DNA from: Paracoccus sp. MBLB3053
GTDB lineage: Bacteria; Pseudomonadota; Alphaproteobacteria; Rhodobacterales; Rhodobacteraceae
DNA: 64,000 bases
Assembly: GCF_031822435.1 (NCBI RefSeq)
Contig: NZ_JAVQLW010000001.1
Span: 1,807,501-1,871,500 of the forward strand
Reading direction: 5' to 3'
A program made the translations under genes and the position numbers. Below are positions 18,335-31,442 of the stretch, piece after piece; positions within the stretch are counted from its first letter, which is position 1; each line of letters starts with the position of its first letter. The notes below the pieces were generated by a model. The model did no database searches, was not told the origin of the DNA, and saw only the letters and a program-made list of their open reading frames with translations.

Positions 18335-19696
18335 ATGAACGACCTCAGCCCGGTCATCGCAGCGGACAAGGCCCATGTCTGGCACCATCTGAGCCAGCAT
18401 AAACAGTATGAAACCATCGATCCGCGCGTCTTCGTCGAAGGCAAGGGGATGCGGCTGTGGGATGCCACCGGCCGCGAGTTCCTGGACGCCGTGTCAGGCG
18501 GCGTCTGGACGGTCAATGTCGGCTATGGCCGCGAAAGCATCGCGAACGCCGTGCGCGACCAGCTCGTGAAGCTGAACTATTACGCGGGGGCCGCTGGCAC
18601 CGTTCCGGGCGCGACATTCGCGCAGCGCCTGATCGAAAAGATGCCGGGCATGAGCCGGGTCTATTATTCGAACTCGGGCTCGGAAGCGAACGAAAAGGTC
18701 TACAAGATGGTGCGCCAGATCGCGGCGCGCCATTACGGCGGCAAGAAATGGAAGATCCTGTACCGCGACCGCGACTATCACGGCACCACGATCGGGACGC
18801 TCGCGACCTCGGGTCAGGATCAGCGCGCGATGCAATACGGCCCCTATCCGGACGGCTTTGTCCGCGTGCCGCATTGCCTTGAATATCGCAAGCAATGGGA
18901 TGTCGAGAATTACGGCGAGCGCGCGGCCGACGCCATCGAGGAGGTCATCCTGCGCGAAGGCCCGGACACCGTCGGGGCGATCGTGCTGGAACCGGTTACC
19001 GCCGGCGGCGGCGTGATCACCCCGCCCGAAGGATACTGGCAGCGCGTCCAGGAAATCTGCCGCAAATACGACATCCTGCTGCATATCGACGAGGTCGTCT
19101 GCGGCGTCGGCAGGACCGGCAAGTGGTTCGGCTATCAGCAATACGGCATCGAGCCGGATTTCGTGACCATGGCCAAGGGCGTCGCCTCGGGCTATGCGGC
19201 GATTTCCTGCACCGTCACGACCGAGCGCGTCTTCGACATGTTCAAGGACGCGCCCGAAGACGGGATGAGCTATTTCCGCGACATCTCGACCTTCGGCGGC
19301 TGCACCTCGGGCCCCGCAGCGGCGCTGGAAAACATGCGAGTCATCGAGGACGAGGGGCTGCTTGACAACTGCACCCTGATGGGTGAGCGCGTGATCGCGA
19401 ACCTGATCGCGCTGATGGAAAAGCACAAGGTCATTGGCGATGTTCGTGGCAAGGGTCTGTTCTGCGGTGCCGAACTGGTCGCGGACCGCCTGACCAAGGA
19501 ACCGGCGGATGAAAAGAAGGTCCAGGCCGTGGTTGCAGACTGCCTTGCGCAGGGTGTCATCATCGGCGCGACGAACCGCTCGGTCCCGGGTTTCAACAAT
19601 ACTCTGTGCCTTTCGCCTGCACTGATCGCCACGGCCGATGACATCGACTTGATGACGAATGCCATCGACGCGGCGCTGACCCGGGTTTTCGGCTAA
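18335..19696 (+). CDS. tpa: taurine-pyruvate aminotransferase (453 aa)
   Basis: A class III PLP aminotransferase predicted to convert taurine and pyruvate to sulfoacetaldehyde and L-alanine. It shows SNSGSEANEK (112-121), Asp252 of the IDEVVCGVGRTG block that contacts the PLP nitrogen, and the Schiff-base Lys281 in TMAKGVASGY. The start at ATG 18335 has AGAGG upstream; a longer frame from 18125 overlaps the regulator gene and is rejected. It is followed 20 bp later by a MocR regulator, which supports the taurine assignment. No taurine transporter, xsc or pta gene lies in this window. Confidence 0.87.
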   Translation: MNDLSPVIAADKAHVWHHLSQHKQYETIDPRVFVEGKGMRLWDATGREFLDAVSGGVWTVNVGYGRESIANAVRDQLVKLNYYAGAAGTVPGATFAQRLIEKMPGMSRVYYSNSGSEANEKVYKMVRQIAARHYGGKKWKILYRDRDYHGTTIGTLATSGQDQRAMQYGPYPDGFVRVPHCLEYRKQWDVENYGERAADAIEEVILREGPDTVGAIVLEPVTAGGGVITPPEGYWQRVQEICRKYDILLHIDEVVCGVGRTGKWFGYQQYGIEPDFVTMAKGVASGYAAISCTVTTERVFDMFKDAPEDGMSYFRDISTFGGCTSGPAAALENMRVIEDEGLLDNCTLMGERVIANLIALMEKHKVIGDVRGKGLFCGAELVADRLTKEPADEKKVQAVVADCLAQGVIIGATNRSVPGFNNTLCLSPALIATADDIDLMTNAIDAALTRVFG

Positions 19697-19716
19697 GTTA
19701 GAATGGCGGCCCGGAC

Positions 19717-21204
19717 ATGCTTCAGGCCGCCATGCAGATCCCACCCGAGACATTCCTGATCGACAGGGCCGTGGCCCAGCCGCTGCAGCTTCAGTTGCGC
19801 CGGCAAATCGTGCTTGCCGTGCATGAAGGCCGGTTGCGACCGGGTGAACGGATGCCGTCAAGCCGGGCACTGGCCGCCCATCTCGGCGTCGGGCGGATCA
19901 CGGTCACGCAAGCCTATGGCGATCTTGTCGCCACTGACTACCTGATTGCGCGGGGCAGGTCGGGCTATTTCATCTCGGATCGGATCGAGGATCTTGGCCC
20001 CGGGCCTGCCACCTTGCAGGAAGCGCCCCGGTTCGACTGGTCTTCGCGGCTGGACGGGCGCAACCTTGCGGCGCGGCGGAAGGACCGACCGACCGATTGG
20101 CGAAACTATCCCTACCGGTTTCTCTATGGTCAGACGGATGACCGTCTGATCGATCATGCGGCCTGGCGGGAATGTGCGGTGCGTGCCCTTGGCCGTCGTG
20201 ATCTTGGCGCATTGTCGGACGATCAATATGATGGCGATGATCCTGAACTGGTCGATTTCATCATACGCCACCTTTTGCCCCGTCGGGGGATCAAGGCCCG
20301 CGCGCAGGAAATCCTGCTGACGCTTGGCGCGCAAAATGCGCTCTGGCTCATTTCCGAGATCCTTCTTGATCGCGGCGCGGCCTGCGCGATCGAGGAACCG
20401 GGCTATCCGGGGCTGCATGAAATCCTGACCACGCTCCGTGCGAATGTCGTGCCTGTCGCGCTCGATTCCGACGGCCTGCCGCCTGCTTCCATTCCGGACG
20501 ACATCTCTGTTGTCTTCACGTCCCCCAGCCACCAATGCCCGACCAACCGCACCATGCCCCGGGAGCGGCGCGAGGACCTGCTGCGTCTGGCCGCCGAGCG
20601 CGAGATCGTCATTGTCGAAGATGACTATGAATTCGAGATTTCCTTTGCGGGCTCAACCTCGCCCGCGTTGAAGGCAATGGATCGCAGCGGGGCCGTGATC
20701 CATATCGGCTCTTTTTCGAAATCTGTCTTTCCGGGTTTGAGGCTCGGCTATATCGTCGCCGATCCGACCTTCATCGCCGAGGCGCGTGCGAGGCGCGGGA
20801 TGATGCTTCGCCATCCTCCGGGGCATGTTCAGCGCACGATGGCCTATTTCCTGTCGCTTGGTCATTACGACAGGCAGCTGAAACGCATGCGCGAAGCCTT
20901 TGCCGAGCGGCACAAGGTAACCTCCCTGGCCCTGATGCGTCACGACATGAACCGGGGGGCGACAGGAAAGGCGGGCGGGTCGAGCTTCTGGCTGGCGACG
21001 CCGCACGGCGTGGACAGCGACCTGCTTGCGCGCGAGTTGCGGCCGCAGGGCGTTCTGATCGAGCCGGGACGACCCTTCTTTCGCGCCCCCGAGGCCGGTT
21101 CAGGGTTCTTTCGGCTGGCCTATTCCTCGATCGCGGCGAGCGATATCGACGAAGGGGTCCGTCGTATCGCGGAGCTTGGCCGAATGCTGGCAGGCAGGGA
21201 TTAG
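19717..21204 (+). CDS. tauR: MocR-family (GntR-aminotransferase) regulator, probable TauR (495 aa)
   Basis: A PLP-dependent transcriptional regulator: a GntR winged helix (about residues 20-88, with MPSSRALAAHLGVGRITVTQ) is fused to an aminotransferase-like domain with the PLP lysine Lys335 in GSFSKSVFPG. Located directly after tpa, it most likely activates taurine catabolism. It starts at ATG 19717 without a strong ribosome-binding site; ATG 19732 is an alternative. The stop overlaps the convergent GntR/FCD gene by 4 bp. Confidence 0.85.
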   Translation: MLQAAMQIPPETFLIDRAVAQPLQLQLRRQIVLAVHEGRLRPGERMPSSRALAAHLGVGRITVTQAYGDLVATDYLIARGRSGYFISDRIEDLGPGPATLQEAPRFDWSSRLDGRNLAARRKDRPTDWRNYPYRFLYGQTDDRLIDHAAWRECAVRALGRRDLGALSDDQYDGDDPELVDFIIRHLLPRRGIKARAQEILLTLGAQNALWLISEILLDRGAACAIEEPGYPGLHEILTTLRANVVPVALDSDGLPPASIPDDISVVFTSPSHQCPTNRTMPRERREDLLRLAAEREIVIVEDDYEFEISFAGSTSPALKAMDRSGAVIHIGSFSKSVFPGLRLGYIVADPTFIAEARARRGMMLRHPPGHVQRTMAYFLSLGHYDRQLKRMREAFAERHKVTSLALMRHDMNRGATGKAGGSSFWLATPHGVDSDLLARELRPQGVLIEPGRPFFRAPEAGSGFFRLAYSSIAASDIDEGVRRIAELGRMLAGRD

Positions 21205-21845
21205 CCCAGCCGCGCAAATGCCTGTAGAACGGCGCGTTCGGACTGGCCCAGATATTCGTCGAGCATTTCGGCGGCCTGCTCGGCCTTGCCTGCCTCGAGC
21301 GTCGAGAGGATCTCGGCATTGCGGTGGATATACGGGCCGTGCAGCAATTCCGGGCTGTCGAGCAGGCCGAAGGCCAGCCGAAGTTCGGCGATGATCTGGG
21401 CAAAGAAGGCGATCAGGCGCGGGCTGTCGGTCAGCGCCACGATGGCTGCGTGAAATTCCATGTTGGCGCTGCCAATGGCGCGCCAATTGCCGCTTTCGCG
21501 CAACTGTTCGGCCCGCTCCACCGCCGCGGTCATGCGGGCCACCGCTTCGTGCCGATGCCAGGCCTGGGCAAGCGCGGGCACCTCGATCAGACGGCGCACG
21601 CGATAGATGTCGAGGATCGAGGCCATTGACGGCTCGGCCACGAAGACCCCTCGGTTCGGCTCATGGCGCAAAAGCCCTTCGCGGGTCAGCAGGCGGAAGA
21701 CCTCGCGCAGAGTGTTTCGGGAAATGTCCAGTTCGGCAGCCAGCTTCGCTTCGGACAGGCGTTGGCCTGGAACGAGCGTCCCTCCGGTCACCTGATCGCG
21801 CAATTGCGAGGCGATTTCTTCGGTCAGGCTGGGTTCTGCGCGCAT
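21201..21845 (-). CDS. GntR-family regulator, FadR/FCD subfamily (214 aa)
   Basis: The N-terminal winged helix (about residues 6-70, LSEAKLAAELDISRNTLREV) is followed by an all-helical FCD ligand domain with the usual metal-site histidines (FHAAIV and YIHRNAEIL regions). It is divergent from the NRAMP-like gene and the 5-oxoprolinase-type cluster across 278 bp, so it is the likely repressor of that cluster. The inducer is not evident; 5-oxoproline or a related lactam or carboxylate is a reasonable guess from context. Confidence 0.88.
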   Translation of the reverse strand: MRAEPSLTEEIASQLRDQVTGGTLVPGQRLSEAKLAAELDISRNTLREVFRLLTREGLLRHEPNRGVFVAEPSMASILDIYRVRRLIEVPALAQAWHRHEAVARMTAAVERAEQLRESGNWRAIGSANMEFHAAIVALTDSPRLIAFFAQIIAELRLAFGLLDSPELLHGPYIHRNAEILSTLEAGKAEQAAEMLDEYLGQSERAVLQAFARLG

Positions 21846-22123: not shown

Positions 22124-23353
22124 ATGAGCGTTTCCGCTCCCAGCGCAGCCAACACCAGCCTCAAGGGCGGGTTCCTGGCAGCAATCTTCCTGATGGCCAC
22201 TTCGGCCATCGGACCGGGGTTCATTACCCAGACAGCGACGTTCACGGCCAAGATGGGCGCGGCATTTGCCTTTGCCATTCTCGCCTCGATCGTCATCGAT
22301 TTCGTTGTTCAGCTGAACATCTGGCGCATCACCGCGCTGACCCGCCGCCGAGCTTCCGACACGGCGAATGCGGCCATTCCGGGCGCGGGCTACGTGCTGG
22401 CCCTGCTGGTCCTGATCGGCGGTCTGGCCTTCAACGTCGGCAATATCGCAGGCGCGGGGCTTGGCCTAAATGCGATGATGGGGGTTGATCCGAAAATCGG
22501 CGGCGCGGTATCGGCGCTGCTGGCCATCGGCATTTTCCTGTCGAGGCGCGCGGGGCTTTTGCTGGACCGCATGATCATCGGGCTGGGTCTGTTGATGATC
22601 GTGATGACCGTGATCGTCGCGCTGACGACGAACCCGCCCGTGGGCGAGGCCCTGCGTCAGGCCGTGCTGCCCGACACGATCGATTTCGCCACCATCACCA
22701 CGATCGTCGGTGGAACGGTCGGCGGCTATATCACCTATTCGGGCGCGCATCGCCTGCTCGACAAGGGGCTCGTCGGGGAAGAGAACCTGCAAGCCGTCAC
22801 CCGCGCATCGCTGACCGGCATCGCAGTCACGGGCGTCATGCGCTTTGTCCTGTTCCTGGCGATCCTCGGCGTCGTTGCCTCGGGTGTCACCCTGGATCTG
22901 TCCAGCCAGGCTGCGAACCCTGCGGCGCAAGCCTTTGCCTCGGCGCTAGGCGAATGGGGCCTGCGGGTCTTCGGGGTCGTTCTCTGGGCGGCGGCCATCA
23001 CCTCGGTGATCGGCGCGGCTTATACTTCTGTCAGCTTCCTCACGGTGTTTGGCGAGATGGACGACCGCGGAAGAAACATTGCCACGGTGATCTTCATCGC
23101 TGTTTCACTTGTGGTCTATCTGGCACTCGGAAAGGCTCCGGCATCGATCCTCGTCTTTGTCGGCGGCTTCAACGGCCTGATCCTGCCGATCGGTCTGACA
23201 ATCTTCACCTATATCGGATTTGCCCGTTCGGACCTGATGGGCGGACATGTCTATAACCGTCCGCTGCTGATCGCGAGCGCGGTCGTCTGCGCCCTGACCT
23301 GGTATATGGGCTTCAAGTCGGTCGGCACGATCTTTTCATTCCTGCTCGGCTAA
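22124..23353 (+). CDS. NRAMP-like permease lacking metal-site residues (409 aa)
   Basis: An eleven-segment membrane protein of the NRAMP fold. Canonical NRAMPs bind the metal through DPGN in helix 1 and MPH in helix 6. Here the helix 1 motif reads GPGF (30-33), and the helix 6 equivalent, aligned by eye, reads GGY (200-202). Metal transport is therefore doubtful. In Bacillus a relative (YcsG) is encoded with 5-oxoprolinase genes, as here, so import of 5-oxoproline or another small organic substrate is an attractive inference. Start ATG 22124 has an AGGAG ribosome-binding site. Confidence 0.82.
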   Translation: MSVSAPSAANTSLKGGFLAAIFLMATSAIGPGFITQTATFTAKMGAAFAFAILASIVIDFVVQLNIWRITALTRRRASDTANAAIPGAGYVLALLVLIGGLAFNVGNIAGAGLGLNAMMGVDPKIGGAVSALLAIGIFLSRRAGLLLDRMIIGLGLLMIVMTVIVALTTNPPVGEALRQAVLPDTIDFATITTIVGGTVGGYITYSGAHRLLDKGLVGEENLQAVTRASLTGIAVTGVMRFVLFLAILGVVASGVTLDLSSQAANPAAQAFASALGEWGLRVFGVVLWAAAITSVIGAAYTSVSFLTVFGEMDDRGRNIATVIFIAVSLVVYLALGKAPASILVFVGGFNGLILPIGLTIFTYIGFARSDLMGGHVYNRPLLIASAVVCALTWYMGFKSVGTIFSFLLG

Positions 23354-23368
23354 CCTGACAAAAACACC

Positions 23369-23393
23369 GCGGTGGCCAGCGACGGGCCACCGC
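23369..23393 (+). other. 9-bp intercistronic hairpin between NRAMP-like gene and pxpA
   Basis: GCGGTGGCC (23369-23377) and GGCCACCGC (23385-23393) pair perfectly around a 7-nt loop. Only CTTTC follows, so termination would be partial at best. It may attenuate or stabilise, giving the permease and enzyme genes different expression. The pxpA ribosome-binding site lies shortly after it. Confidence 0.6.
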
Positions 23394-23416
23394 CTTTCAA
23401 GAATGAGGAGGACAGC

Positions 23417-24187
23417 ATGACCCATTCGATCGACCTGAACAGCGATCTTGGCGAGGGCTATGGTGCGTGGAGCATGGGCGATGACGGCGCGATGCTTCGG
23501 ATCGTCAGTTCGGCCAACGTGGCCTGCGGCTTTCATGCCGGCGATCCGCTGACGATCCTTGCCACGCTGCGCGATGCGGCGGCGAAAGGTGTCGCGGTCG
23601 GGGCGCATGTGTCCTATCCCGACCGGGTGGGCTTCGGCCGCCGCCCGATGGACGTGACTTCGGCCGAACTGACGGCGGACGTGATCTACCAGATCGGCGC
23701 GCTGCAGGGGCTTGCCGCCTCGGTCGGAACGCGCGTGACCTATGTCAAACCGCATGGCGCGCTTTACAACACGATCGCTACCGATGCCCGCCAGGCCGAT
23801 GCGGTGATTGCAGCCATTCAGGCGATCGAGCCGTCGCTGGTGCTGATGGGACTGGCAGGCGCCCCGATCCTTGACAGGGCGCATGGCGCCGGTCTGAAAA
23901 CCGTGGCCGAGGCGTTCGGCGACCGCGCCTATACGCCCGAAGGCCAGCTTGTCTCGCGCCGCGAAAAGGGGGCTGTCCTGCATGATCCCGAACTGGTCGC
24001 GGCGCGCATGGTCCGCCTTGCGACCGAAGGGGTGATCGAGGCGATCGACGGCACGATCCTTCGTCTTCAGGCCGACAGCATCTGCGTGCACGGCGACAGC
24101 GCCGGCGCGGTCGAGATGGCCCGCCGCATCCGCGAAGAACTGCTTGCCGCGGGCGTCGCAATTACCGCTTTCACCGAGGCACTCTGA
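23417..24187 (+). CDS. pxpA: 5-oxoprolinase subunit A, LamB/YcsF family (256 aa)
   Basis: A member of the LamB/YcsF family, identified in Bacillus and E. coli as the A subunit of the prokaryotic ATP-dependent 5-oxoprolinase, which opens L-5-oxoproline to L-glutamate. Family blocks are clear: NSDLGEGYG (8-16), ACGFHAGDP (about 37-45), KPHGALYN and the terminal CVHGDS. It carries the hydrolytic, polysaccharide-deacetylase-like barrel. GAGGAGGAC precedes the ATG. It overlaps the next gene by 1 bp (TGATG). Confidence 0.92.
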
Positions 24188-24975
24188 TGCTGCGCCCCGA
24201 CCCAGCCTCCGCCGCCGCTGCCCGCCTGCAATGCCGTAAGGGGCTTGTTGCCCCCACAGCCGGCATGGCTCCGGGCTTTACACAATGCAACATGATCTCG
24301 CTGCCCCGCGACTGGGCCTGGGATTTCCTGCTCTATGGGCAGCGGAACCCGAAACCTTGTCCGGTCCTGGACGTGACCGATCCCGGCAGCCACCGCACCG
24401 AACTCGCGCCGGGGGCCGACCTGCGCACAGATCTGCCCCTTTATCGCGTCTGGCGTGACGGCGTGCTGACCGAGGAGCTGGCCGACGCGACCGATGTCTG
24501 GGCCGAGCATCCCGATCTGGTCACCTTCCTGATCGGCTGTTCCTTCACCTTCGAAACCCCGCTGATGCAGGCGGGGATCGAGGTGCGCCATGTCACCCAA
24601 GGGTGCAATGTGCCGATGTACCTCACCAATCGCGAATGCCGTCCCGCCGGGCGATTGCACGGTCAGTTGGTCGTCTCGATGCGGCCGATCCCGGCCGATC
24701 GCGTGGCAGAGGCCGCGATGATCTCGGGCCGGTTCCCGGCAGTGCATGGCGCGCCGATCCAGATCGGTGCACCCGAGGCTCTGGGCATTGCCGATCTAGC
24801 CCGTCCCGATTTCGGTGACCCGGTCGAGATCCGCGAGGGCGAGGTTCCGGTTTTCTGGGCCTGCGGTGTCACGCCGCAAGCCGCCGTCATGGCCTCGAAG
24901 CCGCCTTTCGCCATCACGCATGCGCCGGGGCACATGTTCATCACCGACGTGCCCGACAGTCGGTGGCAGGTATGA
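24187..24975 (+). CDS. DUF1445/YcsI family protein (putative hydro-lyase, 262 aa)
   Basis: A YcsI-type protein, often labelled putative hydro-lyase or D-glutamate cyclase family. The block [11 protein letters not shown] near residues 117-127 and the [12 protein letters not shown] block (137-148) are family features, and the C-terminal [12 protein letters not shown] is typical. In Bacillus ycsI lies between ycsF and the KipI/KipA genes, the same order as here. Its exact reaction is not established. It could interconvert glutamate and 5-oxoproline or act on the D-isomer; this is inference from context. Confidence 0.85.
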
Positions 24976-26534
24976 GCATGAAGTTTCTTCCCGTCGGGCC
25001 GCGCACGATCCTGGTCGAACTTGCCGATCTGGACGAGACGCTGGCTTTGTTCGACGCGCTTCTGGCCGACCCGGTCGAGGGCGTGGCCGAAATCGTGCCT
25101 GCTGCGCGCACCCTGATGATCCGCATGGCGCCCGGCTACGGCGCAGATGCCATTCTGGCTGGGCAGGTCGCCCGCCGCAAGCCCGCCCCCGGCACGGTCC
25201 GCGAGGATGGACCGTTAGAGACGGTCGAAATTCCCGTGACCTATGAGGGCGAGGACCTGGATGAGGTCGCCCGGCATATGGGGCTGAGCGTCGCCGAGGT
25301 CGTCGCGGCGCATCAGGCGACGACCTGGCAGGTGGCGTTCTGCGGCTTCGCGCCGGGCTTTGCCTACATGACCTGCGATGATGCCCGGTTCGACCTGCCG
25401 CGCCGAGCGGCACCACGGACACGTATCCCTGCGGGATCGGTCGCGCTGGCCGGGCGGTTCTGTGGCATCTATCCGCAGGAAACTCCGGGCGGTTGGCAGC
25501 TCATCGGGACGACCAAAGTGCCGATGTGGGATCTGAGCCGCGATCCGCCGGCATTGCTGCGGCCGGGCATTCGCGCCCGCTTCGTCGAGGGGGCGGCTGA
25601 AATCCACCCTTCCGCCGCATTGCCTGCGCAGGTGACGGAACCGGTTCTCAAGGTTGTCTCGACCGCCTATCCGATCCTCTTTCAGGACGAAGGGCGTCCG
25701 GGGCAGGGAGGCCAGGGCGTCTCGGCCTCGGGCGCGCTGGATATGGGTGCGCTGCATCGTGCCAATCGCGCGGTCGGCAACCCTTCGAACAGTGCCGCGC
25801 TGGAAATCACCCTTGGCCCGGTCAAGCTGCGCGCTGAATGCGCGGTGACACTGGCGCTCAGCGGTGCGGCTACGGCAAGCGTGGCGGGCACAACCGTTCC
25901 CGCTGGCGCAGCCTTCGCCATGGATGCCGGGGATGAGCTTGTGATCCTGCCCCCCGCAGCCGGAATGCGCAGTTATCTTGCGCTGCGGGGCGGTTTCCAG
26001 ATTGAGCCGGTGCTGGGTTCGGCTTCGACCGACACGCTGGCCTTTGTCGGACCCGACGCGCTGAGCGCTGGCGCCGCGCTCGGTCTTGCCGGGCTTCCTG
26101 CCGGGGCCGTCGCCGAACCGCAGGACCAGCCCGCGCTGCCAAAGTCGGGCGATCTGGTCGAACTCCCCGTCACCCTGGGGCCGCGCGCCGACTGGTTCAC
26201 GCCCGAGATGGTCCGACATTTCCTGACGCAGGAATGGCTGGTCACGCCGCAAAGCTCGCGCGTGGGCATTCGCCTGGAAGGTGCCCAGCCGATGACCCGC
26301 GAGGATGCGACCGAGCTTCCCTCGGAGGGGACGGAAACCGGCGCGATCCAGATCCCGCATTCCGGCCAGCCCGTCCTGTTTCTGGCCGACCACCCGCTGA
26401 CCGGCGGCTATCCCGTGATCGCGACGCTGCTGCCCTCGGCGCTGGATCTGGCAGGCCAGATCCCGCCCGGAGCGCGCATCCGCTTCACCGCCGACCAAGA
26501 CTTCACCCCGATTACCCCTGCGAGGCCCGCATGA
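24972..26534 (+). CDS. pxpBC: fused 5-oxoprolinase subunits B and C (KipI-KipA type, 520 aa)
   Basis: Two domains in one chain. Residues 1 to about 220 are PxpB/KipI (CT_C_D), with CGFAPGF (124-130) and TPGGWQLIG (171-179). Residues about 225-515 are PxpC/KipA (CT_A_B), beginning [20 protein letters not shown]. Both domains are homologous to the carboxyltransferase of urea carboxylase. The start is taken as ATG 24972, giving an ATGA overlap with the previous gene; GTG 24963 and ATG 24978 are alternatives. The ends are coupled to the next gene by another ATGA overlap. In many bacteria B and C are separate, so this is a natural fusion. Confidence 0.9.
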
Positions 26535-28300
26535 CCATTTTCGCCACTGGCCCCGAACGTCCGCTGAACCGACTGCTGATTGCCAATCGCGGTGAAATCG
26601 CCGTGCGCGTCATCCGCGCCTGCCGCGACGAGGGCATCGAAGCCATCGCGGTCTATGCCGACAGCGATCGCGACGCGCTGTTCGTGCGCATGGCCGATCA
26701 GGCGCATGCGCTGGGGGGTGACAAGCCCGCCGACAGCTACCTGAACGCCGAAAAGATCATCGAGATCGCCAAGGCCTCTGGTGCCGAGGCAATTCATCCC
26801 GGCTACGGTTTCCTGTCTGAACGCGCCGATTTTGCGAAGGCCGTGCAGGATGCGGGGCTGATCTGGGTCGGTCCCGATCCGAAGGTGATCGAGGCACTTG
26901 GCGACAAGATCGAGGCGCGGCGGATCGCCGAAGCCGTTGGTGCCCCCCTTGTTGCAGGAACGCCCGGTCCGGTCGAAACCTCGGCCCAAGCGCTGGCTTT
27001 CGCCCGCGAGCATGGATTGCCCATCGCGATCAAGGCGGCCTTCGGAGGCGGCGGTCGCGGCATGAAGGTCGCATGGCGTCTGGAAGAGGTGGAAGAGCTT
27101 TTCGAAAGCGCCACGCGTGAGGCGCTGACCGCCTTTGGTCGCGGCGAATGCTTCATCGAACAGTTCCTGGATCGCCCACGCCACATCGAAGCCCAGGTGC
27201 TGGCCGACCGTCACGGCACGGTCAAGGTGATCGGAACGCGCGATTGTTCGCTGCAGCGACGCAACCAGAAGCTGGTCGAGGAAGCACCCGCGCCTTTCCT
27301 TACCGACGAGCAGCGCGACCGCATCCATGATTCCGCCCGCCGGATCTGCGCCCATGCCGGCTATAGCGGGGCCGGAACGGTGGAATACCTGCTGTCGGCC
27401 AATGGCACGATCTCGTTTCTCGAGGTCAATACCCGCCTGCAGGTCGAGCATCCCGTGACCGAGGAAACCACCGGGATCGATCTCGTGCGCGGGATGATCC
27501 GCATTGCACAGGGTGCGCGTCTTGCCAATGACAGCGTGCCCGCCCCGCGTGGCCATTCGATCGAGTTCCGCATCAACGCCGAGGACCCGGCGCGCGGCTT
27601 CCTGCCGACACCCGGTCCGATTGACGTGTTCGACGCGCCCTCGGGGCCGGGTATCCGGGTGGATAGCGGCGTGACCTCGGGTTCGGTCGTGCCGGGGACC
27701 TTCGATTCCATGATGGCCAAGCTGATCGTGACAGGGGCGACCCGCGCCGAGGCTCTTGCCCGCGCGGCCCGCGCGCTGCGCGAGTTTCGCATCGAAGGCG
27801 TGGCATCGGTCCTGCCCTTCGACCGGGAGGTGCTGGAGCAGTCCGATTTCCGTGCCGAAGATGGCGAGTTTCGCGTTCATACCCGCTGGATCGAAACCGA
27901 CTTCGCCGATGCCCTTGCGAAGGCCATGAAGCCGCATGCCCGGGTCAGCCCCGCAACCCCGTCGAAAACGCTGAGGCTGGCGGTCGAAATCGATGGCAAG
28001 CGGCATGAGCTGGGCCTGCCCGCCGACCTGCTGGCGGCCCTGCCTGCGGGGGATCGCAGCGTCGTCCTCGATGCGGAGCCCGAGGCGGATGCATCTGTCG
28101 TGACCGCGCCGGTCGCCGGAACGCTGACGCTGTGGCAGGCCGAGGCCGGGGCCGAGGTCGAGGCGGGACAAGTCATTGCGGTGATCGAGGCCATGAAGAT
28201 GGAGACCCGGATCGAAGCGCATCGCGCGGGTCGTCTTGAGCAGCTCGCCGAGGCGGGAAAGGTGCTGGCCTATGGTGCGGAAGTGGCACGGATCATCTGA
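26531..28300 (+). CDS. biotin carboxylase with C-terminal biotinyl domain (589 aa)
   Basis: ATP-dependent carboxylation of biotin. It has the N-terminal biotin carboxylase domain ([17 protein letters not shown] from about 15), an ATP-grasp glycine loop (GGGGRGMK), the [14 protein letters not shown] catalytic block, then a biotinyl carrier domain with Lys556 in EAMKMET. It resembles the alpha subunits of acyl-CoA or urea carboxylases, but no acyl-CoA carboxyltransferase gene is nearby. The only possible carboxyltransferase partner in the operon is the PxpBC fusion, to which it is coupled by an ATGA overlap. It is therefore probably part of a biotin-dependent enzyme with PxpBC. Classic PxpABC has no biotin partner, which makes this unusual. 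Confidence 0.92.
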
Positions 28301-28371
28301 TCCGCGCGCGGCGATTTGACATCGACCCGGCAAGGCGGAAAGAGTGCACATGCATTTTTTCCGAGACTTCC

Positions 28372-29397
28372 ATGAGCCTTGCCGGACGCCGTTTCCTGAC
28401 CTTTGCCATTGCCGCGGCGGGAGGGGCGCTGTTCCTGGCGCTGCATTTGCCGCTTCCGTGGTTGCTCGGGCCGATGCTGGCCTGCCTGATTGCCGCGCTC
28501 GCCGGCGTGCCGATGGCAGGGGCGGGCTGGTTCGGCATCCTCATGCGCACCATCCTTGGCGTCGCCGTGGGGGCCTCGATCACGCCCGAGGTGCTGGCGG
28601 GGCTTCCCGAAATGGCAGCCTCGCTCGCCTTCGTTCCGGTCTTCATCGGGGTGATCGCGCTGATCGGATATCCGCTGTTTCGCAAGGCGTTCGGCCTTGA
28701 CCATGCGACGGCCTGGTACGGGGCCATGCCGGGCGGGTTGCAGGACATGCTTGTCTTTGGCGAGGAAGCCGGCGGGAATGTTCGCGCGCTGTCGCTGATC
28801 CACGCGACACGGGTTCTTGTCATCGTCACGGTTGCCCCCCTGATCATGGCGGTATCCTGGGGCCTGGACCTGTCGCAGCCTCCTGGCCAGCCGATCGGCA
28901 GCGTCGCCCCGCAGGAGATTGTGCTGATGTGCGCCTGCGGCTTTCTCGGCTGGCAACTGGCCGAGCGGATCGGGATCTTCGGCGCCTCGATCCTTGGTCC
29001 GATGGTCCTGACCATGATCCTGTCCCTGTCCGGGCTGATCCAGCATCGCCCTCCGGCCGAGATGATCCAGATCGCGCAATATTTCATCGGCATCGCGGTC
29101 GGATCGAAATATGCCGGCATCACGCTGCGAGAATTGCGGCTCTATGTCTCAGCGGGCCTGGTCTATTCGCTTGCGCTTGCAGCGATCAGCCTCGTCTTTA
29201 TCGAGGTCATCACCCACCTTGACCTGGCACCGGGGCTGGATGCATTTCTGGCCTTTCTTCCCGGTGGCCAGGCCGAGATGATCGTCATCGCGATCATCGC
29301 CGGGGCGGATCTTGCCTATGTCGTCAGCCACCACCTGCTGCGCATGGTCCTGGTGATCCTTCTTGCCCCGGTCATGGCGCGCATCTTCCGCGACTAG
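28372..29397 (+). CDS. AbrB-family membrane transporter (341 aa)
   Basis: An integral membrane protein of the Pfam AbrB family (an ammonia-monooxygenase-regulator-like name; not the DNA-binding AbrB). It has about ten hydrophobic segments in two repeated halves, each with a glycine-proline motif (LPWLLGPMLAC near 27-37; GASILGPMVL in the second half) and a loop ending PGGLQDML or PGGQAEMI. It follows the 5-oxoprolinase-type genes by 71 bp in the same direction and is probably a second transporter of that locus. The substrate is unknown. Its 3' end overlaps kup by 3 bp. Confidence 0.82.
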   Translation: MSLAGRRFLTFAIAAAGGALFLALHLPLPWLLGPMLACLIAALAGVPMAGAGWFGILMRTILGVAVGASITPEVLAGLPEMAASLAFVPVFIGVIALIGYPLFRKAFGLDHATAWYGAMPGGLQDMLVFGEEAGGNVRALSLIHATRVLVIVTVAPLIMAVSWGLDLSQPPGQPIGSVAPQEIVLMCACGFLGWQLAERIGIFGASILGPMVLTMILSLSGLIQHRPPAEMIQIAQYFIGIAVGSKYAGITLRELRLYVSAGLVYSLALAAISLVFIEVITHLDLAPGLDAFLAFLPGGQAEMIVIAIIAGADLAYVVSHHLLRMVLVILLAPVMARIFRD

Positions 29398-31295
29398 ATG
29401 TTCATCTGGGTGCCGATTTCGACCACGCGTCCGGCCGGAATGCGGAAATAGTCCGACGCCGCCGCCGAGTTTCGCGAAAGCGCGATGAACAGCTTCGCCT
29501 GCCAGCCCGGAACCCGGCTGCGGGTCGAAATCCGGATGCGGCGGCGGGACAGGATGAACGAGGTCGCCATGATGTCGAACTTCCACCCCTGCCTGCGGCA
29601 TTGCAGCAGCGCCTGTGGGACGTCGGGCTCTTCCGCATAGCCGTAACGCAGCAGGATGCGACGGAAATGTTCGTTGACCTCTTCGATCTGCACTCTTTCG
29701 GACAGGGCGACCCGAGGCACGTCTGCCGTCGTGATGGTCAGGATCACGTTCTGTTCGTGCCGCGCCTTGAAGTGCTTGAGGCTGTGAAGCAGCGCGGCCG
29801 GCGCGAGATCGGGTGTCGAGGTCAGGAAGACCGCCGTTCCCGGCACCGATACGAGGCGGTCTGATTGCTCGACCTGGTCAAGAAGCGTGCCCAGCGGCAG
29901 TTCGGCCTCGCGATCCTTTGCCGAGACGATTGCCGTGCCCCGCACCCAGCTTGTCATGATGACCAGCATCACGGCTGCGATGCCCAGGGGCACAAAGCCT
30001 CCATCGCCGATCTTCATGAGGTTGGCGCCCAGGAAAATCAGGTCGAGCAGAAGGAAGGGCAGCATGATCGCGACCGAAAGCCAGATCGGAAGCTTCCAGT
30101 GCTTGTGCGCCACAACCATGGCCAGCGTGGCCGTCACCACCATCGTGCCGGTGACGCTGATCCCATAGGCCGACGCAAGGCTCGAGGACGAACCGAAAAG
30201 CACGACGAGGGCAATCACCGCGAACATCAGCCAGCGGTTCACGCCCGGCATGTAGATCTGGCCCTGATGTTCGTCCGAGGTGTGGCGGATCTTCATGCGG
30301 GGAAGCAAGCGCAGCTGCACCGCCTGCTGCGTCAGCGAATAGGCGCCCGTGATGACGGCCTGGCTGGCGATGATCGTCGCCATGGTTGCAAGGATCACCA
30401 CCGGCAGAAGCGCCCAGCTTGGGAACAGGAGGTAAAACGGGTTCGCCATCGCCTCGGGGTTGGACAGGACCAGCGCGGCTTGGCCGAAATAGGTCAGAAG
30501 CAAGGCAGGGAAGGCCACGAACAGCCAGGCGAGCTGAATCGGCCTGCGTCCGAAATGGCCCATATCGGCATAAAGCGCCTCGGCCCCGGTCACGGCCAGG
30601 AACACTGCCCCCAGGACAATGAGCCCGAGCGTGCCGTTGTCCGCGACGAAGCGGATCGCGTGGACCGGGTTGACCGCCGTCAGGACCTCGGGGTTCTGCA
30701 CCATCCAATGGGTACCTCCGGCGGCCATGACGATGAACCAGACCAGCGTGATCGGCCCGAAGAAGCGCGCCACTGCCTCGGTTCCACGGTTCTGCACGAG
30801 GAAAAGGCCGATGATGATGGCAATCGCGATCGGCTCGATGAATGGATCGACCTGGTCAGTCACGAGCTTCAGCCCTTCGATCGCCGAAAGCACGGAAATG
30901 GCCGGTGTGATTGCCGCGTCGCCGTAGAAAAGCGCCGCGCCGATCATGCCGACAAAGAGGATCGCCCGATTGGGCTTGCCCATGGAGCGTTGGGCCAGGG
31001 CGAGCAGCGACAGCGTGCCGCCTTCGCCTTCGTTATCGGCGCGCAGCAGGATCAGCACATATTTCAATGTGACGACCAGGATCAGCGCCCAGATGATCAG
31101 CGACAGCACACCAAGCACATCGGCGCGTGTCACCCCGCCATGCCGCGCGCCTGCCGCGAGGATCGCCTCGCGGAAAGCGTAAAGGGGGGATGTGCCGATG
31201 TCGCCATAGACGACGCCGATCGCAGCGAGAGACAAGGAAGCGACACCCGCACGTTGTGGTTGGGCTTCAGGAAGATGTGAATCGAGGCTGGCCAT
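29394..31295 (-). CDS. kup: low-affinity potassium transporter Kup (633 aa)
   Basis: A KUP/HAK/KT-type potassium-proton symporter. The N-terminal signature GVVYGDIGTSPLYAFRE (residues 27-43) is intact. About twelve membrane segments are followed by a C-terminal cytoplasmic domain of roughly 180 residues. I start at ATG 31295 with GGAACTC upstream; a TTG at 31328 would add 11 residues. It is divergent from a KdpD-like/KdpE-like two-component pair across about 150 bp, suggesting that pair controls this potassium uptake gene. Confidence 0.93.
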   Translation of the reverse strand: MASLDSHLPEAQPQRAGVASLSLAAIGVVYGDIGTSPLYAFREAILAAGARHGGVTRADVLGVLSLIIWALILVVTLKYVLILLRADNEGEGGTLSLLALAQRSMGKPNRAILFVGMIGAALFYGDAAITPAISVLSAIEGLKLVTDQVDPFIEPIAIAIIIGLFLVQNRGTEAVARFFGPITLVWFIVMAAGGTHWMVQNPEVLTAVNPVHAIRFVADNGTLGLIVLGAVFLAVTGAEALYADMGHFGRRPIQLAWLFVAFPALLLTYFGQAALVLSNPEAMANPFYLLFPSWALLPVVILATMATIIASQAVITGAYSLTQQAVQLRLLPRMKIRHTSDEHQGQIYMPGVNRWLMFAVIALVVLFGSSSSLASAYGISVTGTMVVTATLAMVVAHKHWKLPIWLSVAIMLPFLLLDLIFLGANLMKIGDGGFVPLGIAAVMLVIMTSWVRGTAIVSAKDREAELPLGTLLDQVEQSDRLVSVPGTAVFLTSTPDLAPAALLHSLKHFKARHEQNVILTITTADVPRVALSERVQIEEVNEHFRRILLRYGYAEEPDVPQALLQCRRQGWKFDIMATSFILSRRRIRISTRSRVPGWQAKLFIALSRNSAAASDYFRIPAGRVVEIGTQMNI

Positions 31296-31442
31296 CTTGA
31301 GTTCCGATAGCGGGAGGATTCCCGACAAGATCCGGAAGATGCCGCAGAGCAGCGTAAAGGTTCGATGCGAATTTGCGGGCCTCTCGTAAGGAAGCCATAA
31401 AGACTGTGGACAAGGTCACCCGCTTGTCGCCAGATCCGGGAC

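Follow-up and report, generated by a model that had tools for sequence, protein, structure and literature searches.

The PxpABC systems of Bacillus subtilis, Escherichia coli and Corynebacterium glutamicum combine a protein of the PxpA family with a CT_C_D and CT_A_B domain pair, PxpB and PxpC. In C. glutamicum pxpTABC is essential for growth on 5-oxoproline, PxpT is an NRAMP/YcsG-type transporter, and the divergently encoded PxpR is a GntR regulator that binds 5-oxoproline (PMC13274462). PxpB and PxpC are homologous to the carboxyltransferase of urea carboxylase, and Lombard and Moreira left open whether such homologues pair with other biotin carboxylases (BCs) or come from another reaction (PMC3199775). 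Here we describe an operon at positions 22124-29397 of a 64,000-nucleotide stretch of the Paracoccus sp. MBLB3053 genome (the window, to which positions refer), in which a fused pxpB-pxpC gene (pxpBC) is followed by a gene for a BC joined to a biotin carboxyl carrier protein (BCCP). We propose that the operon probably encodes a biotin-dependent, bicarbonate-cycling lactam hydrolase, most likely a 5-oxoprolinase, and it points to the first of the two options in PMC3199775, partnership with other biotin carboxylases.

The six same-strand genes reported by the first-pass annotation were all located from reading frames and Pfam matches (Table 1), and the overlaps that it described among the four enzyme genes are present at all three junctions when read from the DNA: TGATG between pxpA and the DUF1445 gene, and ATGA both between the DUF1445 gene and pxpBC and between pxpBC and the BC-BCCP gene. 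The locus resembles the known PxpABC systems in its PxpA and its carboxyltransferase domain pair, and that of C. glutamicum also in its NRAMP-type transporter and divergent GntR gene, but it differs from them in the fusion of PxpB to PxpC, in the dedicated BC-BCCP gene within the operon, and in matches to the PxpB and PxpC equivalog models that fall below cut-off. With urea carboxylase and urea amidolyase it shares homologous BC, BCCP and carboxyltransferase domains and, in the logic proposed, the activation of an amide by N-carboxylation ahead of a hydrolase, although here the parts lie on two proteins and PxpA replaces the allophanate amidase. A fungal parallel may be the lam locus of Aspergillus nidulans for use of 2-pyrrolidinone, whose LamB we take to be the namesake of the PxpA family and whose LamA is presumably carboxylase-like. 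A six-gene Staphylococcus aureus operon with pxpB, pxpC, pxpA, accB and accC likewise holds pxp, BC and BCCP genes together, although accB and accC are separate there and the authors interpret accBC as serving fatty acid synthesis (PMC11315280). Linked operons are not special to this genome, and the linkage of pxp to accBC is already in print. In the open-licence literature we found no paper that proposes the biotin mechanism.

The BC domain of the BC-BCCP protein carries both ATP-grasp and catalytic motifs, as judged from Pfam and from a motif alignment of 76 sequences. The residues that we take to be catalytic (GGGGRG, H218, RR(N/H)QK, E298/N300/R302/E306 and R347) are invariant in 74 to 76 of these and agree with AccC of the same genome, and the candidate biotin lysine, K556 in an EAMKM motif of the PF00364 carrier domain, is kept in 76/76. 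The closest solved sequence match of BC-BCCP is mycobacterial AccA3 (aligned over residues 11-588, 704 bits), and since AccA3 serves acyl-CoA carboxylases this resemblance suggests an alternative in which the gene encodes the alpha subunit of an acyl-CoA carboxylase and lies in the pxp operon by chance. The genome encodes five BCs, namely AccC (458 aa frame), alpha subunits of 673 aa and 717 aa, pyruvate carboxylase (1149 aa) and the operon BC-BCCP, together with four PF01039 carboxyltransferases, two of full length close to the 673-aa and 717-aa subunits and two halves fitting AccA and AccD (the names AccA, AccD, PccB and MccB being assigned from length and neighbouring genes). AccC, PccA and MccA can account for all four, a 206-aa biotinyl protein near AccC fits AccB, and a whole-genome profile search finds PxpBC as the single CT_A_B protein and a single PxpA. 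Leaving PxpBC aside, the operon BC-BCCP is thus the one BC to which no carboxyltransferase can be assigned. The first-pass annotation had noted the lack of any other carboxyltransferase partner in the window, and had named an acyl-CoA carboxyltransferase partner elsewhere in the genome as what would overturn its proposal; its statement extends to the whole genome, where we found no spare PF01039 protein, the counts being compatible with the sharing of one.

The pairing of the two genes is conserved well beyond this genome. A search of named genomes, in which the closest relatives are Paracoccus, returned 68 loci, 66 of them with a complete fused PxpBC, and a fused BC-BCCP gene lies directly downstream in 64 of the 66; of the other two loci, L076 is truncated by its contig, and L077 (Austwickia) has its genes unfused and lacks a nearby BC. 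The same operon is present in Paracoccus denitrificans (L016). PF02626 was also sought in a drawn sample of 199 Pseudomonadota genomes and was present in 81, from which 76 places were fetched (frames below 900 aa, longer ones being taken as urea carboxylase, with the window and one cut fragment, G004, excluded). All ten fused PxpBC in this sample are accompanied by a fused BC-BCCP, and the association of the two fusions is strong (Fisher p ~1e-11, kinship ignored). A same-strand BC lies within ~6 kb at 18 of the 76 places and a divergent one at one more (L084), where ~1 would be expected as estimated from the BC density of the Paracoccus sp. MBLB3053 genome. The drawn sample may overlap the named loci, and counts in both sets ignore relatedness. 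At the 74 loci with both fusions the genes overlap in 63 and lie within 60 bp in 73, with a median gap of -4 bp (on script-predicted starts), and adjacency this tight is not a matter of chance. We consider it highly improbable that the BC-BCCP is a hitchhiking acyl-CoA carboxylase subunit, and reject this on the genome bookkeeping and the conserved adjacency to pxpBC; the BC tree, in which pxp-linked copies compose one clade, also speaks against it.

Other arrangements of these genes are found outside the fused class. Gene orders with both BC and BCCP include A-BCCP-BC-B-C and BCCP-BC-B-C-A (single letters denoting pxp genes); Actinomycetota show B-C-BCCP-BC-DUF1445-A as well as B-C-A-BCCP with the BC gene divergent. 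Among 60 actinomycetotal genomes searched, 14 have matches (Austwickia included), giving 19 match rows and 16 places fetched, with two pieces of one broken gene in G241 and a urea carboxylase (G250:C75) left out; the 15 places that are not full urea carboxylases have BC and BCCP nearby in four cases and a BCCP at a contig end in one. Also among the 15 are two reverse-order CT_A_B-CT_C_D fusions (L172 in G250 and L177 in G239; frames of 705 and 793 aa) in stretches without BC or PxpA; both group with urea carboxylase, and they may be carboxyltransferases that borrow a BC.

Trees were built for PxpC, first with 19 of the 67 named loci that have a PxpC and then with 19 loci thinned out and seven more omitted (L077, which duplicates the Austwickia gene of L183, and six rows on long branches), and for 61 chosen BC rows (the contig-cut L089 excluded). 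The window-type Pseudomonadota PxpBC form one clade within an actinobacterial group (100/100), and its sister (100/98) is G209, an actinobacterium with its own fused PxpBC and BC-BCCP. In the BC tree the window BC (entered twice) and 25 pxp-linked BCs of other loci form one clade (100/100), which joins five actinobacterial AccA3-type proteins and the G209 copy in a wider clade (100/100), although the branching order of the G209, AccA3-type and Pseudomonadota BCs is poorly supported (95/48). The agreement of the PxpC and BC trees is consistent with joint transfer of the two genes, presumably from Actinomycetota. The main separate-gene class of PxpC groups with urea carboxylase (100/94 in the first tree, 84/51 with more rows), its BCs form another clade (100/98), and the BCs of L084, L111 and L121 form a third (100/99). 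The pxp-linked BCs thus fall in three separate clades, and the linkage of pxp genes to BC and BCCP genes apparently has more than one origin. A second BC in locus L069 (691 aa, labelled pxpI) groups with the 717-aa BC of the genome.

A structural entry also brings the two partners together. Among the PDB entries with the AccA3 sequence matched by BC-BCCP is 9YX5, whose title describes a Mycobacterium smegmatis long chain acyl-CoA carboxylase complex 'with MSMEG_0435-MSMEG_0436 bound'; we found no paper on it in the open-licence literature, and rely on its title, the names of its chains, and matches in sequence or fold. On these it resembles the Paracoccus pair in bringing an AccA3 BC-BCCP together with PxpB and PxpC homologues, and differs in that AccA3 also serves acyl-CoA carboxylation there, whereas the BC-BCCP seems dedicated here. 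We read the entry as support for contact between AccA3 and the PxpB/PxpC homologues and not for catalysis. MSMEG_0435 and MSMEG_0436 are reported to be up 2.4- and 2.2-fold under nitrogen limitation (PMC4617892).

PxpABC might alternatively phosphorylate the lactam with ATP, leaving the BC-BCCP as a scaffold, a regulator or a second enzyme. Phosphorylation is in print as an assumption cited by the C. glutamicum authors (PMC13274462), and co-purified PxpB and PxpC are reported to hydrolyse ATP (PMC8453981). However, all Pfam domains of PxpBC are of carboxyltransferase type (phosphorylation motifs were not searched for), pxp genes are linked to BC and BCCP genes in several distinct ways, and 9YX5 places such partners in one complex, so that we regard this alternative as improbable.

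In the biotin mechanism that we favour, the BC domain, as its intact motifs suggest, would carboxylate the biotin of its own carrier domain at the expense of ATP and bicarbonate, and the carrier would swing to PxpBC, which by homology to urea carboxylase and from 9YX5 is predicted to pass CO2 to the amide nitrogen of the lactam ring. PxpA would then open the activated amide of the ring by hydrolysis, leaving an N-carboxy amino acid that would shed CO2, with bicarbonate recycled and one ATP spent per ring. By analogy to PxpT and PxpR, import of the lactam would fall to the NRAMP-like protein, and its sensing probably to the GntR protein. This is the biotin-dependent lactam opening put forward in the first-pass annotation, of which the partnership of BC-BCCP with PxpBC is supported by the genome bookkeeping, the conserved adjacency, the several separate linkages, the agreeing trees and 9YX5; the carboxylated-lactam chemistry and the exact substrate stand as predictions. 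The proposal bears on why PxpBC, made of carboxyltransferase domains, needs ATP. If correct, it would bring an N-carboxylated lactam into biotin chemistry as an intermediate, give an alternative reading for accBC genes in operons assigned to fatty acid synthesis, and link the salvage of 5-oxoproline with the supply of biotin.

Several observations weigh against the biotin mechanism, beginning with the assumed phosphorylation and the reported ATP hydrolysis, for which the relevant part of PMC8453981 mentions no biotin protein with PxpB and PxpC. In the drawn Pseudomonadota sample 58 of the 66 unfused PxpBC have no same-strand BC within ~6 kb, including L084, counted in this way with its PxpA, BC and BCCP divergently oriented and its BC on the opposite strand; the remaining unfused pairs are seven with a separate BC gene, one of which (L089) is at a contig end with no BCCP visible, and one with a fused BC-BCCP (L107). 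Two loci from metagenome-assembled genomes (L052 and L059) have a window-clade fused PxpBC without a nearby BC-BCCP, and their genome records, whose completeness is unsure, contain AccC-like and longer BCs and none of the BC-BCCP type. The NCBIfam equivalogs for PxpB and PxpC are also failed (TIGR00370, 127.2 of 145.55; NF045499, 176.1 of 500), as is the domain model TIGR00724 (222.6 of 230.2); PxpA passes its subfamily model NF003814 (371.9 bits, cut-off 226). Finally, the genome encodes two Hydantoinase_B proteins elsewhere (contig C4, 164010-165599 and 79193-80770), which are possible ATP-dependent lactam or hydantoin openers.

Residues of the carboxyltransferase also fail to separate linked from unlinked forms cleanly, and a residue signature for linkage was therefore rejected. 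Linked forms and urea carboxylase have 36 PxpC positions in common, of which 24 are kept in at least 93% of unlinked rows as well. PxpB Q176 and G161 and PxpC R333 and W422 (numbered by the Paracoccus sp. MBLB3053 proteins) are common to the fused-linked, main separate-linked and urea carboxylase rows and altered in two groups of unlinked rows. In a third clade, however, they are kept by most of the unlinked rows, so that they track lineage more than linkage; Q176 is kept by one of the three linked rows of that clade. The AlphaFold2 model of PxpBC (predicted local distance difference test score, 90) has fold matches to TTHA0988, MSMEG_0435-0436, YbgJK and urea carboxylase. A carboxyltransferase component of the urea carboxylase type is thus present as the fused PxpBC, but carboxyltransferase and BC-BCCP are separate genes here and not the single BC-CT-BCCP chain of urea carboxylase, and the operon was rejected as a urea carboxylase on this architecture and on the model scores, which fall far short (TIGR02712, 137.7 and 509.6; cut-off, 1303.85).

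The substrate is most likely 5-oxoproline, as judged from gene content and from a layout, with NRAMP-type transporter and divergent GntR gene, like that of the C. glutamicum genes. A GntR/FCD homologue is present in 46 of 78 loci; one of these matches at 27%, and in a few the gene does not lie directly upstream. The NRAMP-like protein of the window has GPGF in the place of DPGN, which we take to be the metal motif of metal-transporting NRAMP proteins; among 30 suitable-length copies in the loci, 29 have GPGF and none has DPGN. The same biotin mechanism could act on another cyclic amide opened by PxpA, such as another lactam, the D form of 5-oxoproline or a cyclic imide: DUF1445 bears the family name of D-glutamate cyclase, the PxpB and PxpC equivalog models are unpassed, and four genomes (G043, G070, G149 and G198) encode a BC-linked set together with a second PxpC place that is not a urea carboxylase; in three of them the second set has no linked BC, and a division of substrates is suggested. 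The transporter and regulator layout, being that of genes needed on 5-oxoproline, counts against a different substrate, which we think unlikely.

A wider proposal would make all PxpABC biotin enzymes that borrow a housekeeping AccBC or AccA3, with PxpBC never phosphorylating. The 5-oxoprolinase of Pseudomonas putida, reported as component A of 64 + 51 kDa in a hexamer of dimers and component B of 82 kDa (PMC8453981), would then be BC-BCCP with PxpBC and a trimer of PxpA. The Pseudomonas mosselii proteins have masses, on predicted starts, of 61.3 kDa (BC-BCCP), 56.0 kDa (PxpBC) and 27.6 kDa (PxpA; 82.8 for three), a comparison that is suggestive only. The only BC of Austwickia is AccA3-like, and BC-linked members fall within a clade that includes the gene order pxpB-pxpC-pxpA. 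The 9YX5 complex is in favour as well, as is a biotin response in C. glutamicum, where a table of biotin-responsive genes gives cg1142 (pxpT) as 2.1 at limitation and 0.4 at excess and cg1141 (pxpA) as n.d. at limitation and 0.5 at excess (PMC3398298); this response also counts for the biotin mechanism of the Paracoccus operon, although a biotin enzyme for 5-oxoproline is not discussed in the examined parts of PMC3398298 and PMC13274462. Against such generality stand the ATP hydrolysis reported for co-purified PxpB and PxpC and the residues that most linked forms share with urea carboxylase and that two unlinked groups have altered, and we hold the extension to all PxpABC to be doubtful.

Table 1. 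Genes of the Paracoccus sp. MBLB3053 pxp operon and its divergent regulator.
Feature	Position	Strand	Matches
Divergent GntR/FCD regulator, placed like C. glutamicum pxpR	21201..21845	-	Pfam GntR + FCD
NRAMP-related transporter, PxpT/YcsG-like; presumed lactam/5-oxoproline uptake	22124..23353	+	PF01566 78.7 bits
pxpA (LamB/YcsF); presumed ring-opening hydrolase subunit	23417..24187	+	PF03746 335 bits; NF003814 above cut-off
DUF1445 / D-glutamate-cyclase-family protein	24187..24975	+	PF07286 232 bits; NF003969 above cut-off
Fused pxpB-pxpC, urea-carboxylase-type carboxyltransferase	24972..26534	+	PF02682 at 3-196, PF02626 at 249-506
BC-BCCP fusion, 589 aa, AccA3 type	26531..28300	+	PF00289/02786/02785/00364
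AbrB-duplication membrane protein, possible transporter	28372..29397	+	PF05145 267 bits, TIGR03082

The AbrB-type gene is separated from the BC-BCCP gene by 71 bp, and it adjoins the pxp operon in few relatives only. On the other side, a class III aminotransferase gene followed by one for a MocR-type regulator (18335-21204) adjoins the pxp operon and is apparently separate from it; we presume that these may be a taurine-type pair. Immediately 3' of the operon, on the opposite strand, is a gene for a Kup-type potassium transporter (29394-31328).

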